A stretch of 64,000 nucleotides of DNA from Dehalococcoidia bacterium (GTDB lineage: Bacteria; Chloroflexota; Dehalococcoidia; DSTF01; JACRBR01). The notes under the pieces are model-generated. The model was not told the origin of the DNA, did not search any database, and was given only the letters and a program-made list of their open reading frames with translations. Shown here piece by piece: positions 3,129 through 56,211 of this stretch. The translations under genes were made by a program, and so were the position numbers. Position 1 is the first letter of the stretch; the number at the start of each line of letters is the position of its first letter. The stretch is from NCBI GenBank assembly GCA_015478665.1, contig JADMII010000007.1, forward strand, positions 1 through 64,000, in the 5' to 3' direction.

Positions 3129-3887
3129 ATGCCCGCTGTCACGATCGCGACGCTGAACCTGTTCAACCGCATGGGCCAATGGGGCCTGCGGGCGCCGCTG
3201 CTGATCGACCAGCTCGAGGAGCTGGCGCCGGACGTGCTCGGGCTGCAGGAGGTCGACCTGACGCTCGACCAGGGGATGTGGGTGAGCCGCCAGATCAACA
3301 AGCGGCGGGCGGAGCGGCCGCACTATCGCATCAAGCACGCCACCAATCCCGACACGCGCGCCAGCTACCACGCGATCGCGACGCTCTCCTGTATCCCATT
3401 CGAGGAGCACGAGGTGCTCGACCTGATGTCGTTCGAGCGCGTCGCGCAGCGGATGGTGTTCCGCTGCGGCGACAGGCCGTTCGTCTTCGTCAACACGCAC
3501 CTGCACCACCCGCCGGAGGCGCAGCAGGAACGTGTGGAGCAACTCGAGCGGCTGATGGCGTGGCTCGGACGCGACACGCGCGGCCTGCCGACGGTGATCG
3601 CCGGCGACTTCAACGCCTACGCTGAGCCGCCGGAGCCGGCGGTGCGGCTGATGAAGTCGCGGTTCCGCTCGGCGGTGGAGACGGCGCAGGGGCGGGAGCC
3701 GGAGAAGACGTGGACGACGCCCGTGAACACGTACGACGACTCGCCGCACGGCACACTGGACTACATCTTCGTCTCGGGCCAGTGGCAGGTGCTCGCAGCC
3801 GGCCTCGCGTTCGACCGGCCATCGCCGCTCGACCCGAACGTCTATCCCTCCGACCACCTGGGCCTGTACGCGCGGCTGGCGCTGTAG
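3129..3887 (+). CDS. Endonuclease/exonuclease/phosphatase (EEP) family hydrolase
   Basis: The 252-residue protein has the full metal-dependent EEP signature: ATLNLFNR (Asn), LQEVD (metal Glu), NTHLHH (His), AGDFNAYAEPPE (Asp/Asn), DYIFVSG and the C-terminal YPSDHLGL catalytic Asp-His. Such enzymes cleave phosphodiester or phosphomonoester bonds in nucleic acids, nucleotides, inositides or sphingolipids; the substrate cannot be told here. There is no signal peptide or membrane segment, so it is cytoplasmic. AAAGGAG lies just upstream of the ATG. It appears monocistronic. A 12-base direct repeat (GCGACGAACGCG at 3888 and 3921) follows the stop codon. Confidence 0.85.
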   Translation: MPAVTIATLNLFNRMGQWGLRAPLLIDQLEELAPDVLGLQEVDLTLDQGMWVSRQINKRRAERPHYRIKHATNPDTRASYHAIATLSCIPFEEHEVLDLMSFERVAQRMVFRCGDRPFVFVNTHLHHPPEAQQERVEQLERLMAWLGRDTRGLPTVIAGDFNAYAEPPEPAVRLMKSRFRSAVETAQGREPEKTWTTPVNTYDDSPHGTLDYIFVSGQWQVLAAGLAFDRPSPLDPNVYPSDHLGLYARLAL

Positions 3888-18433: not shown

Positions 18434-18796
18434 GCCAGCGGGCCGGGTGGCCGCTCCCGGCGACGGGAGAGGAAAGTCCGAACTCCACAGGGCAGGATGC
18501 CGGCTAACGGCCGGGCGCTGCGAGGCGACGGAAAGTGCCACAGAGACATACCGCCCGCTTCGGCGGGTAAGGGTGAAATGGTGCGGTAAGAGCGCACCGG
18601 CGTCGTGGAGACACGGCGGCCGGGCAAACCCCATCCGGAGCAAGGCCACGTAGGGGACCATGTCCGCCGCGGCGGAATCAGGACGGCCCGTCCGAGCGTC
18701 CCGGGTACGCCGCACGAGCTGCCGGGCAACCGGCAGCCCAGATAGATGGCCACCGCCCGGCAACGGGTACAGAATTCGGCTTACAGGCCCGCTGGC
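18434..18796 (+). ncRNA. rnpB: RNase P RNA, bacterial type A
   Basis: This is the catalytic RNA that trims tRNA 5' leaders. The ends pair perfectly as helix P1 (GCCAGCGGGCC at 18434 with GGCCCGCTGGC ending at 18796). Universal core elements are present: GAGGAAAGTCCGAACTCC near the 5' end, a GGGTGAAATGGTGCGGTAAGAG stretch in the middle (conserved region II-III), and ACAGAATTCGGCTTACAG near the 3' end. Length about 363 bases fits type A. It has its own promoter. Confidence 0.95.
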
Positions 18797-19132
18797 ATGC
18801 CTCCCGCCGACGCACCGGGCCGGCGCGCCCCGCCGCCATGGACGCCTGGTATGCGCGGCGGCACGTGCGCCCGCAGATATGTTGGGAAGTTCGGCCGTGC
18901 TGTCGCAGGCCGGTGGCACGCAGATCCAGACGACCACGGCGCGCGTCCAGCAGCGGAACCCGGCCTTCTCCAACGAGCCACGCACCGGGTGAGCTTCGAC
19001 GACGGCAGCGGCATCACCGCCTATCTCAGAGCGATGAAGGCTGGAGCTTCCGCGTGCGGCCTCCAACCGCCGTCCGCCGAGGCCATGCCCGCGCTGCATA
19101 CAGCGCTCCATCGCCGCTGTACACTGCCTGAG
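18797..19132 (+). promoter_or_regulatory. Spacer between rnpB and dxr with a start-proximal -10 box
   Basis: No credible gene lies in this spacer. Near its end TACACT (19120-19125) precedes the dxr ATG at 19133 by seven bases and there is no ribosome-binding site, so dxr may be translated from a leaderless mRNA. Confidence 0.4.
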
Positions 19133-34233: not shown

Positions 34234-36471
34234 TCACTCACGACCCGCCACCGCACGGCGGCGCCCACGCCTCCGACGCGCGCCCACGCCGCACGCCAGC
34301 AGGCCGAGCGTCGCCGCGCCGGCGGCGACTGCGAGCGGCAGCCGACCGAGGCCGCTTCCGCCAGCGCTTCCCGACCCCGTGTCCGGCAGCGTGCGGCGCG
34401 GCGCCGGCGGCGCCACTGCGACACCACCGACGCCGACGAAGGCCAGCAGGCGCTGCTGGACTACCGCAAACAACCCGCCCCCGGTGCCCACCAGCGCGAA
34501 CGCCCGCTCCGGCGCGACGAATAGGATCGAGACGTCCGGAGGGTAGCCTTCCGATGCTGCGCCGGCCGGCTGCGCCAACCACGTCGCGCCGCCGTCCGCG
34601 CTGCGCCAGATCGTCGGCGTGCACTGCGACGCGCTGCACTGGTACCCGCCGGCGCGGCCCGTCTGTCCGTCGAAGAAGCGCAGGCCGAAGAGGGCCGCGC
34701 CGGGGATGCGGCCCGCCCGCCACGTCCTGCCGCCGTCGGATGTGCGCCACACCGTCGCCGCGCCGCTGCAATTCCGGCTGACCCAGGCACGCAGCGCATC
34801 GATCGCCGCGACCGGGTTGCTGCGGATGCATGAATCCGAGGGCGGGATGTCGGCGAGCCGCAGCCACGTATCGCCGCCGTCGGCGGAGCGGTAGGTGCGG
34901 GCCGGGCAGGTGCTGGCGCCGGGCGGGCAGGCGGCGGCGAAGGCCCAGAGCGTCCGCGCATCGACGAACGCGAGCTGCGCGTCCGGCTCGGGCGGCCGCT
35001 GCTGACGCCACGTCGCGCCGCCGTCGCTCGTGCGGAACAGCGCATTGTCGGGCGCAGCCGGCGAGGCGAGCCAGCCGTTACGGGAATCGACGAAGTGCAC
35101 CGTCGGGACGTCGCCGAGCTGCGTGTCGAACTGCCTCGACCAGGTCACGCCGCCGTCCGTCGAATGCAAGACGGTGATATTCGAGCAGTCAGGCTGACAC
35201 GCGCGCGTCACAGCCCAGCCCTCGCTCGCCGAAATGAAGTCCAGCGAGACCGGAACGAAATCGCTGATCGGCGTCCACGTCAGCCCCGCGTCCTCGCTGC
35301 GCAGCAGGCGCGACGCCGCGAGCCAGCCGCGCGATGCGTCGACGAAGTCGAATGCGCCGGAGCCGACGGTCATCGGGAAGTTCGCCAGCCCCCACGTCGT
35401 CCCGTCCGCCGTCCATTGCGGCGTCGCCGTGCCGAGCCAGACGCCGCGCTGCCGGCCGGCGAAAGCAACCGTGCGCAAGACGCCATCCGACGCGCCGATC
35501 TGCCTCCAGGTCTCGCCGCCATCGCTCGTCTCGAAGAGGCGCGAGGCGCAGCTGTTGCCGCAGACTTCGTCCGAGACGAGCAGATCGCTGGCGCCCAGCG
35601 CCTGCAGCGCGACCGCGCCGTCTCGCGTCGTCCGCACCGTCTTCCAGGTGCTGCCGCCGTCCGTCGTGCGCAGCACCTGCTCGTCACACGGATTGCCCGA
35701 ACTACAGCTGGTCGCCGCCGCCCAACCTGTATTCGCTCCCGTGAACGCCAGGCGGTCGATGAGCGAAGGCACCGGCGTCGTCTGCCACGAGGCGCCGCCG
35801 TCGTCGCTCCGCAGCAGCGCGTACTCGAGCGCCTGGCAGCCGACGCCGCCATGCGGGTTCGTCACCGACGCGCAGCGCTGGCCGGCCATCCAGATCCGTG
35901 CGCCGTCCGCAAGCGCGCTGATCGCGCCGATGGCGTAGTCGCCCGCGATCCGCAGCTCCCGCCACGAGGCGCCGGCGTCGTCCGTGCGGAGGATGACGCG
36001 CGGCGACGGATCGAGCATGACGACATCGCTGAAGCCGGCGCGAAAGCCGGCGGCGATTGCGCGATCGCCGCCGAGTGACGCGACCGCGAGGAGGTTCACC
36101 TGCGTGCCGGAAGTCTGGCGGCGCCACGTCATGCCACCATCGGCGGTGCCGAAGACGACGCCGTTCGGGCCGACAGCCCAGCCGTGCATGCCGTCCGGCG
36201 CGGCCGCGAGGCTGCTGTAGCCGCCGAAGTCCTCGGCGGTCTCCGCCAGCGACCAGCCACGTCCGCCGTCGGCCGAGCGGAAGATACCGCCGAAGCCCGT
36301 CGCCCAGACGACATCGGGCGACGCGAAGACGGCGTCATAGATCTCGCCCGATGGCAGCGTCAGGCGTGTCTGCCACCCCGGCTCCTGCCCTGCCTGGTCC
36401 GCCGATGCCCCGCCGGAGAGCGCGAGGAACAGCACCGCCGCCGCCAGCACGATCACCACCACGCGTCGCAT
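34234..36471 (-). CDS. Secreted YCF48/BNR-repeat protein with LPDTG sorting signal
   Basis: The 745-residue protein has a signal peptide (MRRVVVIVLAAAVLFLALSGGASA), then about a dozen repeats with the sialidase-type Asp-box core (RSADGG-x-W, RTDDAGASW, RTTDGGSTW, ETSDGGETW, RSEDAGLTW, HSTDGGVTW), as in YCF48/BNR beta propellers. It ends with a Pro-rich linker, LPDTG at about 695-699, a hydrophobic stretch and an Arg cluster (GARRRRGRRR), the layout of a sortase substrate. The start ATG 36471 has AAAGGTGG upstream; GTG 36480 is an alternative. Paired cysteines occur in several blades. It is probably a cell-surface anchored propeller binding a protein or glycan. No sortase gene is in the window. 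Confidence 0.85.
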   Translation of the reverse strand: MRRVVVIVLAAAVLFLALSGGASADQAGQEPGWQTRLTLPSGEIYDAVFASPDVVWATGFGGIFRSADGGRGWSLAETAEDFGGYSSLAAAPDGMHGWAVGPNGVVFGTADGGMTWRRQTSGTQVNLLAVASLGGDRAIAAGFRAGFSDVVMLDPSPRVILRTDDAGASWRELRIAGDYAIGAISALADGARIWMAGQRCASVTNPHGGVGCQALEYALLRSDDGGASWQTTPVPSLIDRLAFTGANTGWAAATSCSSGNPCDEQVLRTTDGGSTWKTVRTTRDGAVALQALGASDLLVSDEVCGNSCASRLFETSDGGETWRQIGASDGVLRTVAFAGRQRGVWLGTATPQWTADGTTWGLANFPMTVGSGAFDFVDASRGWLAASRLLRSEDAGLTWTPISDFVPVSLDFISASEGWAVTRACQPDCSNITVLHSTDGGVTWSRQFDTQLGDVPTVHFVDSRNGWLASPAAPDNALFRTSDGGATWRQQRPPEPDAQLAFVDARTLWAFAAACPPGASTCPARTYRSADGGDTWLRLADIPPSDSCIRSNPVAAIDALRAWVSRNCSGAATVWRTSDGGRTWRAGRIPGAALFGLRFFDGQTGRAGGYQCSASQCTPTIWRSADGGATWLAQPAGAASEGYPPDVSILFVAPERAFALVGTGGGLFAVVQQRLLAFVGVGGVAVAPPAPRRTLPDTGSGSAGGSGLGRLPLAVAAGAATLGLLACGVGARRRRGRRRAVAGRE

Positions 36472-36935
36472 CGCATCCACCTTTCAGCGCAGCCCTGCGT
36501 CCGTTAGAACGCCTCAATGCCGGCAAAGGTGAACGCCGGATGCGCTGAAATCGGCCGAATTGACGGCTCACGCAGACGCCGCGTCGCAGTCGCGGCGGCG
36601 GCGCGGCTGGAGAGCGAGCGCGCAAAGGCGCCGAAGCGTGCGGCGGCTGTGCGGTCGAAGGTCAACGATCGTCGTCGCCGCCGTTCGTCATGCCGCTCGC
36701 GTGCTGGCGCATCTGCGGTTGAAACGTCGGGCTTGGCGGGTCGATCCCGTCGCATCGAGCATTCCCTGCGCCAGAGCCGGTCACTCATCCCGGAACTTCA
36801 CGAGCCGTCGCGGCGGGCACGTGCTTCGCCGCTCATACGCCCGAACGCCAGCCGCACGGGGCTTCGGGCCAGATGATCAGGCCGCTGCCGGCGCGGGGCG
36901 TCACAGGAATGCGCCGAGGCCAGTGCCCGCCGGGG
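36472..36935. other. Non-coding stretch
   Basis: No credible gene. Frames here are Arg-rich and lack ribosome-binding sites. It must contain the promoter for the LPDTG gene on the minus strand, but I see no clear hexamer pair. Confidence 0.45.
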
Positions 36936-52493: not shown

Positions 52494-52523
52494 GGTGACG
52501 AGCCGGCAGCAGAGGGACACGAC

Positions 52524-54935
52524 GTGACACATGCACATCGATACCGGCGCCTGCGCCGGGGTCGCCGCGGCGCGCCCGCGGTCAGTTCGAAGCCGCTGTT
52601 CGTCGCGCTCATCGTGCCGCTCCTGCTGGTCATGGTGGCCGTCGGATCGGGCCTCACCGTCGGCGCCGTCAGCTACTACCGCGATGTGACGACCGGCGTC
52701 CTGCCGCCGCAGCAAGCGATCGACGCGCGCGGCGGCGGGGCGAAGATCTACGACCGGAATGGCACGTTGCTCTATCAGTTCCTCGACCCCAACTACGGCT
52801 ACCAGACGACCGTCACGCTCGACCAGATCTCGCCGCTGATCCAGCAGGCGACGATCGCTGCCGAGGACGCCAGCTTCTATTCGAACCCGGGCGTCAACGT
52901 CAAAGGGCTGACCCGGGCGGCGATCGAGAACCTGCAGCCGGGCGACAAGTTCCTGCAGGGCACCGGCGGCAGCTCGATCACCCAGCAGCTGGTGAAACAA
53001 CTGTACTTCAGCCCGAAGCAGCGACAGGAACGCTCGCTCTCGCGGAAGCTGAAGGAGGCCGTGCTGGCGGTGAAGCTGACGCAGGACTACGACAAGAACC
53101 AGATCCTGACGTGGTACCTCAACGAGGTGCCGTACGGCGGCGTCCTCACCGGCATCGAGGCCGCGTCCGAGGGCTACTTCGGCATCCCGGCGAAGGACGT
53201 CAACCTCGCGCAGGCGGCGTTCCTGGCCGGCCTGCCGCAGTCGCCGACGGACTACGACCCCTTCCAGCACATGGAGCGGGCGAAGCAGCGCCAGAGCGAA
53301 GTCCTCGACCTGATGGTCAAGCACGGCTACATCGACCAGACGACGGCGAACTTCGCCCGCCTCTACCAGATCAAGCTCAACCCGAAGCCGCAGCCGTTCC
53401 TCGCCCAGCACTTCGTCCTCTACGTCGCCGACTACATCAGGCGGACGCTGGGCGAGGACGCGCTGATGCGCGGCGGCCTCAGCGTCCTGACGACGCTCGA
53501 CCTCAACCTCAACACCCAGGCCAACCTCCTGCTCGAGAACAACCTCCGGAAGTACGAACAGTCGAGCGGCGGCCACAACGGGGCCGTCGTCGTCATCAAT
53601 CCGCCGACAGGACAGATCCTGGCGATGGTGGGCAGCCGCGACTACAACCGGGCGGACATCGACGGCACCGTCAACGCCGCGCTCGCCCTGCGCTCGCCGG
53701 GCTCGACGCTGAAGCCGTTCACCTACGTGACGGCCTTCGAACAGGGCTGGGGGCCGGAGTGGCCGATCGTCGACACGCCGATCACGTACACGTCGCCCGG
53801 GAGCCCGCCGTTCTCGCCCAGGAACCCGGACGGGCGGACGCGCGGCGTCATCCCGCTGCGCGTCGCGCTCGGCAACTCGTTCAATATCCCTGCGTTCAAG
53901 ACGATCTTGTGGGCGGGCGTCCAGAACGTGATCAATACGGCAAAGTCGATGGGCATCACGACGCTCGACGGCCGCGGTCTCGGCCCGGCGCTGACGCTCG
54001 GCGGCAGCGACGTGAAGCTGCTGGACATGGTGTTCGGCTACGCGACGTTCGCCAACGGCGGCGTGCAGGCTGGCGTGCGAGAGACGCAGAGCCTGCCCGC
54101 CGGCAACCGGCAGCTGGAGCCCAACCCGATCCTGGTCGTCCGGAACCGCGCCGGCGACATCCTGATGAACAACACCAAGCCGCAGACGCAGCAGATCATC
54201 AAGCCGGAGTACGCCTGGCTGATCACGAACGTGCTCTCGAACGACGTCAACCGCCAGATCACGTACGGCGTCGGCAGCAGCCTGAACATCCCCGGCTACC
54301 AGGTCGCGGCGAAGACCGGGACGAGCGAGCCGTTCCCGAACAGCAAGGCGATCGGCGACACGTGGACGTACGGCTACACGCCCGATGTCGCCGTCGGCGT
54401 GTGGGTGGGCAACAGCGACTACAAGCCGATGATCAACATCCTCAGCACAACGATCGCCGGCGCGACGTGGCACAGCGTGATGGTGGCTGCCCTGAACGCG
54501 GCGCCAGAACGCCGTCCCTTCGTGCAGCCGCCGGGCATCGTCACGGCGACGGTGTGCGTGCCGAGCGGCATCGTCAAGCCGCCGAACAGCACCTGCCCCA
54601 GCGTGACCGGCCTGTTCGCCGCCGACGCGCTGGCGAAGCAGGCCAACAACGATGCATGGTGGGGCGGACAGCAACTGCCCGGCGCGGTGCCGATCACCGC
54701 CCGCCTCTCGGGCATCCCCGCGGGCATCACAGGCTGGAAGCTGTACCTGGCGCAGGAGTACCTGCGCACCCTCGGCACGTCGCGGCAGCCGACACCGCCG
54801 CCACAGGCCCGCCGCGGCCCGGCGCCGATCGTACCCGTCGCACCGGTGCCCCAGTTGCAGCACCAGGTGGCACCGGTGCCGCAAACCGACGATCGTGGCC
54901 GTACGCCGCCGCGGCAGCAGCGTCGCGGCCGCTGA
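52524..54935 (+). CDS. Class A penicillin-binding protein (transglycosylase/transpeptidase)
   Basis: The 803-residue bifunctional enzyme polymerises and crosslinks peptidoglycan. After one membrane helix (LFVALIVPLLLVMVAVGSGLTVGAV) comes a GT51 domain with IAAEDASFYSNPGVNVKG (the usual His of EDxxFxxHxG is Asn) and GTGGSSITQQLVKQLYF. The transpeptidase domain has SxxK (SPGSTLKPF), SxN (GNSFNIPA) and KTGT (AAKTGTSE). The C-terminus is Pro/Gln/Arg-rich and disordered. The start is GTG 52524 with AGAGGGA upstream. It follows the response regulator by 30 bases, suggesting coordinated control of wall synthesis. Confidence 0.95.
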   Translation: MTHAHRYRRLRRGRRGAPAVSSKPLFVALIVPLLLVMVAVGSGLTVGAVSYYRDVTTGVLPPQQAIDARGGGAKIYDRNGTLLYQFLDPNYGYQTTVTLDQISPLIQQATIAAEDASFYSNPGVNVKGLTRAAIENLQPGDKFLQGTGGSSITQQLVKQLYFSPKQRQERSLSRKLKEAVLAVKLTQDYDKNQILTWYLNEVPYGGVLTGIEAASEGYFGIPAKDVNLAQAAFLAGLPQSPTDYDPFQHMERAKQRQSEVLDLMVKHGYIDQTTANFARLYQIKLNPKPQPFLAQHFVLYVADYIRRTLGEDALMRGGLSVLTTLDLNLNTQANLLLENNLRKYEQSSGGHNGAVVVINPPTGQILAMVGSRDYNRADIDGTVNAALALRSPGSTLKPFTYVTAFEQGWGPEWPIVDTPITYTSPGSPPFSPRNPDGRTRGVIPLRVALGNSFNIPAFKTILWAGVQNVINTAKSMGITTLDGRGLGPALTLGGSDVKLLDMVFGYATFANGGVQAGVRETQSLPAGNRQLEPNPILVVRNRAGDILMNNTKPQTQQIIKPEYAWLITNVLSNDVNRQITYGVGSSLNIPGYQVAAKTGTSEPFPNSKAIGDTWTYGYTPDVAVGVWVGNSDYKPMINILSTTIAGATWHSVMVAALNAAPERRPFVQPPGIVTATVCVPSGIVKPPNSTCPSVTGLFAADALAKQANNDAWWGGQQLPGAVPITARLSGIPAGITGWKLYLAQEYLRTLGTSRQPTPPPQARRGPAPIVPVAPVPQLQHQVAPVPQTDDRGRTPPRQQRRGR

Positions 54936-56053: not shown

Positions 56054-56070
56054 GAATCGTACGCACCACC

Positions 56071-56158
56071 GTTCTGCGGGAGCTGGGATCGCGCCCGGCT
56101 GAGAGGCCCACGAGGGCGACCGCCGAACCTGATCCGGGTAATGCCGGCGCAGGGAATG
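56071..56158 (+). promoter_or_regulatory. TPP riboswitch (THI element)
   Basis: The conserved thiamine-diphosphate aptamer is clear: a closing stem (TTCTGCGGG with CGCAGGGAA), the pyrimidine-sensing GGCTGAGAGG, and CCGAACCTGATCCGGGTAATGCCGGCGCAGGGAATGAG. It lies 54 bases before thiD. In this layout it should repress the thi genes when TPP is abundant. The expression platform is not obvious; the short distance suggests control of translation initiation or a hairpin in 56159-56211. Confidence 0.95.
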
Positions 56159-56211
56159 AGCAGCCTCACCGCCTCCCTCCCGGACGCCGGCATCCGCCCT
56201 TCGAGGCCGCC

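Follow-up and report, generated by a model that had tools for sequence, protein, structure and literature searches.

The window, that is, the whole 64,000-nucleotide stretch of DNA analysed here, carries on its minus strand an open reading frame (34234–36480) that is a genuine gene. Counted from a GTG codon at 36480 it encodes 748 amino acids; the start is probably the ATG at 36471, codon 4 of the frame, which gives 745 amino acids and is preceded at a distance of 6 nt by a ribosome-site-like stretch, AAAGGTG. The parts of this gene, together with a second gene of the window that bears on the cell envelope, are as follows.

34234–36471, minus strand: putatively anchored double-propeller protein (745 aa from the ATG; 748 aa from the GTG at 36480)
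36400–36471, minus strand: signal peptide, with MRR, a hydrophobic core and an ASA/DQ cleavage site (by inspection)
35356–36363, minus strand: first propeller, six canonical Asp boxes and a degenerate WTADGTTW (boxes by pattern; boundary and seventh box by reading)
34411–35355, minus strand: second propeller, six canonical Asp boxes (box pattern, AlphaFold2 model and Foldseek)
34375–34389, minus strand: sorting motif LPDTG, residues 698–702; P-x-T-G-x-G when the next two residues are counted
34279–34341, minus strand: hydrophobic stretch of the sorting signal (from the sequence)
34237–34278, minus strand: arginine-rich tail (from the sequence)
52494–54935, plus strand: class A penicillin-binding protein (Transgly 189.7 bits, Transpeptidase 96.2 bits)

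The window also contains a class A RNase P RNA (18435–18799) and a TPP riboswitch (56066–56173).

The initial annotation had read a signal peptide, many Asp-box repeats and a complete LPxTG-type sorting signal in this one chain, and each of these elements is borne out. The signal peptide has a counterpart of similar make-up in a homologue from the same genus (genome G002). Twelve canonical boxes of the pattern [ST]xDxGxxW were counted at residues 69–627, spaced 43–77 residues apart, and from this count and spacing the protein probably consists of two seven-bladed propellers, the closed form of which we infer. By reading, the seventh box is degenerate in the first propeller and missing in the second. 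At the C-terminus, a linker rich in Gly and Ser comes after the LPDTG motif, then a run of about 21 residues, most of them apolar, and finally the arginine-rich tail; the chain ends 46 residues past the motif.

The Pfam models for PSII_BNR/YCF48 (88 bits, cut-off 27), Sortilin-Vps10 (82 bits, cut-off 33) and BNR (46 bits, cut-off 27) all match the protein. An AlphaFold2 model of residues 352–690, corresponding to the second propeller and based on 21 alignment rows, is all beta (pLDDT 72.7, pTM 0.68); the model of the full-length protein, based on 10 rows, was poor (pLDDT 59.1) and was left out of the fold search. The likeness to the photosystem II assembly factor YCF48/HCF136 lies in the Asp-box propeller and in PF14870, which is over its cut-off here. 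Chains of that factor are, however, 326–437 residues long as against 748 here, and it is the present protein that bears a wall signal. With the YCF48 equivalog model (NCBIfam NF010237) the protein scores 102.6 bits, far under the cut-off of 326, and a YCF48 function was set aside for this reason.

The host assembly comprises 2.67 Mb in 66 contigs and is 98.86% complete. A match to RpoB was found in 22 of 24 genomes, and the tree was built from 21 rows, without that of Eremiobacterota, for which the marker pattern gave no open reading frame. In this tree the genome groups with Roseiflexus, Anaerolineae and other Chloroflexota (support 100/99), and its class-mates form their own clade within Chloroflexota, separate from both the Roseiflexus row and the Anaerolineae-containing group (100/98). 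DXR was unusable for placement, with no match in seven genomes that have named Chloroflexota loci.

The class A penicillin-binding protein reported initially is present in the window, and genes for a class B penicillin-binding protein, MraY and two Mur ligases, one of them of MurD type, lie in a stretch of contig 26. Omp85 gave no match in the genome and matched in 7 of the 14 control genomes. Because Omp85 is without a match and genes of peptidoglycan synthesis are present, the monoderm-like wall that the initial annotation proposed is plausible on gene content as a peptidoglycan-bearing monoderm envelope. There is a wall for a sortase to act on. Published views conflict on the outer membrane of Chloroflexota. 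As far as the available text of each source goes, cryo-tomography of Tepidiforma, of the Dehalococcoidia, showed a membrane, peptidoglycan and an S-layer, and Tepidiformales genomes are described as lacking outer-membrane genes (PMC10284905); some Chloroflexota have a diderm-like envelope in tomograms, yet are generally deemed monoderm and lack BAM genes (PMC13319060); and one author places Chloroflexi among the outer-membrane bacteria (PMC7203096).

A genome free of sortases had been named as the finding that would refute the anchoring proposal, and this condition does not hold. Three sortases score over the Pfam cut-off in this nearly complete assembly, one at position 113256 of contig 10 and a pair at positions 3233 and 3941 of contig 7. 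All three keep the conserved His, Cys and Arg, seen as GH, TC and two following arginines. The same search matched 3 of 14 control genomes (B. subtilis, C. glutamicum and L. lactis), all of them Gram-positives. For each sortase the best NCBIfam model is class F (NF033748), with 119.7, 118.3 and 57.0 bits against a cut-off of 166, and since all three fall under that cut-off their class and specificity are unproven. The third (57.0 bits) passes the general NCBIfam sortase model. In phmmer searches of the PDB one sortase found no match, and another matched class C sortases.

The propeller gene adjoins none of these enzymes. The nearest is that of contig 10, the contig to which the window belongs, about 77 kb away, whereas the other two share the 23-kb contig 7 with several surface proteins that end in PxTG, a hydrophobic stretch and basic residues. 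No anchored substrate was found in the 20-kb stretch around the contig 10 sortase, the nearest one found being about 14 kb off (position 99509). This contig 10 sortase may be a housekeeping enzyme; its gene (L041:9971–10675, near 113 kb of contig 10) adjoins a cytochrome c assembly gene. Sortases are present in 100 of 197 genomes of the class and in all six of the other members of the order that were checked (G001, G007, G014, G015, G016 and G017), and because they are so common in the order the co-occurrence of propeller and sortase carries little weight.

The sorting signal of the lineage was sampled in the sortase-holding stretches of 13 further genomes of the order and in the host's own contig 7. 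Twenty genes there encode proteins with a C-terminal hydrophobic segment plus basic residues, 16 of them with Px[TS]G in place; these 16 come from eight of the 13 relatives and from the host. The sortase stretches of the other five relatives, some of which are short contigs, yielded no gene with such a motif. The 16 tails, with the propeller excluded, were aligned to give a profile (A4) in which P and G are invariant and T and a second G nearly so, that is, P-x-T-G-x-G. Leu precedes the Pro in 4 of the 16 rows as aligned, and one more row carries LPASG as an additional motif closer to the C-terminus. Searched against 18 genomes of the order, A4 found a match (E ≤10) in every one, with best E-values per genome from 1.6e-22 to 4.5e-4; the host gave 11 matches at this threshold, the propeller among them.

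Tails held out from the profile were examined in the fetched stretches (n = 35). Px[TS]G occurs in 35 of 35, a figure owed in part to the motif being itself contained in the profile; the second Gly occurs in 33, and Leu precedes the Pro in 11 and is lacking in 24, counts to be read with the bias that the training rows lean away from Leu, that most loci were fetched through the profile, and that some tails are orthologous to each other or to training rows. Among the held-out tails of the host itself Leu is present in four of six. Strict LPxTG searches would thus miss many tails of the order, given the 24 of 35 without Leu. We lean slightly towards an order-specific sortase code, P-x-T-G-x-G, in which Leu would be dispensable and the second Gly would matter, and which class-F-like sortases would read to anchor the double propeller and Ig-like proteins, overlooked by the standard anchor models. 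As a lineage-specific version of the sorting signal it is a candidate, drawn from aligned tails.

The C-terminus of the propeller fits this profile. Although it was left out of A4, its tail is found in the host genome with an E-value of 1.2e-4 (23.9 bits), the motif columns included. In a six-frame scan of the window with the A4 rows the propeller tail came out best at 18.1 bits, the next being 8.9. A control scan of 840 kb from other genomes (80 loci) reached 15.0 bits at best, over profile positions 18–39 only, the hydrophobic part, and the reversed A4 model gave a maximum of 7.4 bits in the window. A codon-biased LPxTG DNA pattern had 35 matches genome-wide as against 19 for the pattern read backwards. 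Four of the 35 stand at the end of an open reading frame with a hydrophobic stretch and a basic tail: LPNTG on contig 7, LPDTG of the propeller, LPGTG on contig 36 and LPSTG on contig 53. The propeller tail was absent from the matches of the Pfam model Gram_pos_anchor (PF00746) even at E 10. A match to that model is a name-giving criterion and no mechanistic requirement for sortase substrates; what marks such a substrate is found here, namely an N-terminal signal peptide (by inspection), a C-terminal motif with hydrophobic stretch and basic tail, and a sortase in the same genome.

Further proteins of this type, for which a search had been proposed, are indeed encoded: at least nine proteins of the genome, the propeller counted, bear the C-terminal signal, and this number is a lower bound. 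Four are on contig 7 (LPNTG, LPASG/PNTG, PPVTG, and LPGTG at the start of the contig); the others are the propeller in the window, the proteins at 99509 of contig 10 and 51295 of contig 53 (both PNTGSG), that at 9883 of contig 53 (LPSTGSG) and that of contig 36 (LPGTGAG). PF00746 has no match over its cut-off in the genome and only weak ones, some of them on contig 7, and no NCBIfam anchor model was over its cut-off among the proteins scanned. Contig 7 also encodes Ig-like, cohesin and dockerin proteins. In its first 20,000 nucleotides (locus L042, 10430–17322) a cohesin (33.4 bits) and two dockerins (41.7 and 34.1 bits) are all over their cut-offs; two sortases and the anchored Ig-like proteins are encoded on this contig too. 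A second cohesin-like protein (L209:1639–2412) scores 16.8 bits, under the cut-off. From these domain matches a cohesin–dockerin surface scaffold is possible in Chloroflexota.

Two homologues of the propeller are from the same genus. That of G001 is 46–47% identical and has lost its N-terminus at a contig end, and it keeps MPGTGGG with the hydrophobic stretch and basic tail; that of G002 is 50% identical, and its contig ends before the tail. Four propellers from another family of the order (G014, G015, G016 and G017) are 28–30% identical. Their tails, as a set, read LPKVGAALPNGG, PPDTGSA, LPKVGAALPASG and LPDVG, all with hydrophobic-basic ends, and none of the four is among the A4 matches listed (down to about E 0.02); on both counts the motif does not strictly accompany the propeller. 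A contig scan with the propeller returned at least 80 distant propellers from many phyla, with 22–39% identity in the best segment and no close named relative among the matches listed.

In all four genomes of the other family the gene immediately upstream of the propeller encodes 718–743 amino acids and has a VWA match that reaches or narrowly misses the Pfam cut-off (L329:3805–5958, L330:6791–8944, L331:4984–7164 and L332:10640–12868); no VWA-match gene is found at this place in the window. In G001 the propeller gene, on a contig of 5.65 kb, is near dxr and an M50 protease gene, with no homologue there of the cytochrome oxidase of the window, and a link between the propeller and the convergent cytochrome oxidase genes was set aside for this reason. 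No relative turned up when viral contigs were scanned with the neighbouring cytochrome oxidase. G014 also encodes a paralogue (L049:2952–5288, contig 36 of that genome) in which a LuxR-type GerE domain is joined to an Asp-box propeller; by reading, a hydrophobic stretch separates the two. From its domain order it looks like a one-component transmembrane sensor, and the joining of the LuxR-type domain to the propeller suggests extracellular sensing by a propeller of this kind in one lineage.

Overall, the complete signal, the three sortases and the other signal-bearing proteins support the surface-displayed, sortase-anchored propeller of the initial annotation. We consider it likely that the protein is a secreted double propeller covalently anchored to the wall by a class-F-like sortase, where we infer the identity of the sortase, the covalent bond and the peptidoglycan target. 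Exported by Sec, the chain would fold extracellularly into a pair of Asp-box beta-propellers of the YCF48/GH74/sortilin type. Its C-terminal signal would then be cut between Thr and Gly of LPDTG by a class-F-like sortase and the cleaved protein joined to peptidoglycan, so that the propellers would stand on the cell surface as a ligand-binding or adhesive module. That they bind a polysaccharide or a protein is a guess from the fold.

The main rival to sortase anchoring is a plain membrane anchor: the tail would be an ordinary transmembrane segment, held uncut in the cytoplasmic membrane with the propellers outward, and LPDTG would be a relic or a product of chance. The distant propellers point this way, with a hydrophobic-basic tail that persists as the motif changes (LPDVG, LPNGG), as do the cohesin protein at L042:11501–12514 and the weak cohesin protein of L209, both of which end in a hydrophobic segment without PxTG. 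The match of the propeller tail to the profile of the order's sortase loci includes the motif columns, however, and PxTGxG is retained in the homologue from the same genus; on this evidence we regard a plain membrane anchor as unlikely. PEP-CTERM-type signals have the same three-part layout of short motif, hydrophobic stretch and arginines, and the tail could on that account be processed by an exosortase- or rhombosortase-type enzyme. This appears highly improbable, as PxTG is a known sortase cleavage motif and PxTG-type tails lie in the very stretches that hold sortase genes, in eight of the 13 relatives and in the host.

A different question, compatible with wall anchoring, is whether the ectodomain is a GH74-type glycoside hydrolase (xyloglucanase) and not a binding module. 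GH74 enzymes have two seven-bladed propellers each, built with Asp boxes, and two catalytic aspartates; the Asp-box repeat count and the fold match of the second propeller fit this two-propeller layout, the full-length model being poor. In the Foldseek search with the second propeller the best matches were GH74 xyloglucanases (7 of the top 10 chains), with YCF48 and sortilin also matching, and residues 433–544 show a weak and local sequence match (E 1.7e-4) to chain 4lgn, labelled 'Cellulose-binding, family II', which we take to be a GH74 enzyme. The fold matches, however, have 14–18% identity and query TM-scores of 0.38–0.59, and Ycf48-type chains match the sequence better, which leaves a hydrolase of this kind improbable.

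The anchored double propeller, as proposed, resembles the LPXTG substrates of Firmicutes and Actinobacteria in its signal peptide, ectodomain, PxTG, hydrophobic stretch and basic tail and in the sortases of its genome. It differs in its phylum, Chloroflexota, in the first motif position, often not Leu in the tails of the order, in the second Gly common to them, and in that the Pfam anchor model misses its tail. A motif without Leu has a precedent in another phylum: C. difficile SrtB, in the available text of PMC4155245, cuts (S/P)PXTG between Thr and Gly and is reported not to cut LPXTG. Leu-less PPxTG-type motifs are also seen in this genome; SrtB is, however, an enzyme of Firmicutes, whereas here the sortases are class-F-like and tails of both LPxTG and PPxTG type occur in one genome. 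Class F sortases, whose model is the best for all three enzymes, were first studied in Propionibacterium acnes according to the accessible part of PMC13251363; the present enzymes are under the model cut-off and belong to Chloroflexota.

The remark of the initial annotation that sortase anchoring is little described in such organisms fits the literature as regards anchoring: in open-licence papers, covered mostly by title and the start of the abstract, nothing was found that dealt with sorting signals of Chloroflexota or with anchoring of a YCF48-type protein. It does not extend to the enzymes, which are common in the class; a Chloroflexus sortase homologue was noted in 2006, in the available text without evidence of sortase action (PMC1586193), and sortase homologues in Chloroflexota are therefore not new. 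Most of what is known of wall anchoring by sortases comes from Firmicutes and Actinobacteria, and the envelopes of Chloroflexota are disputed in the question of monoderm and diderm organization. Wall attachment of the propeller is directly testable with the three recombinant sortases and short peptides. With a lineage-specific signal and the list of candidates, surface proteins of these mostly uncultured bacteria would become recognisable from their genomes.
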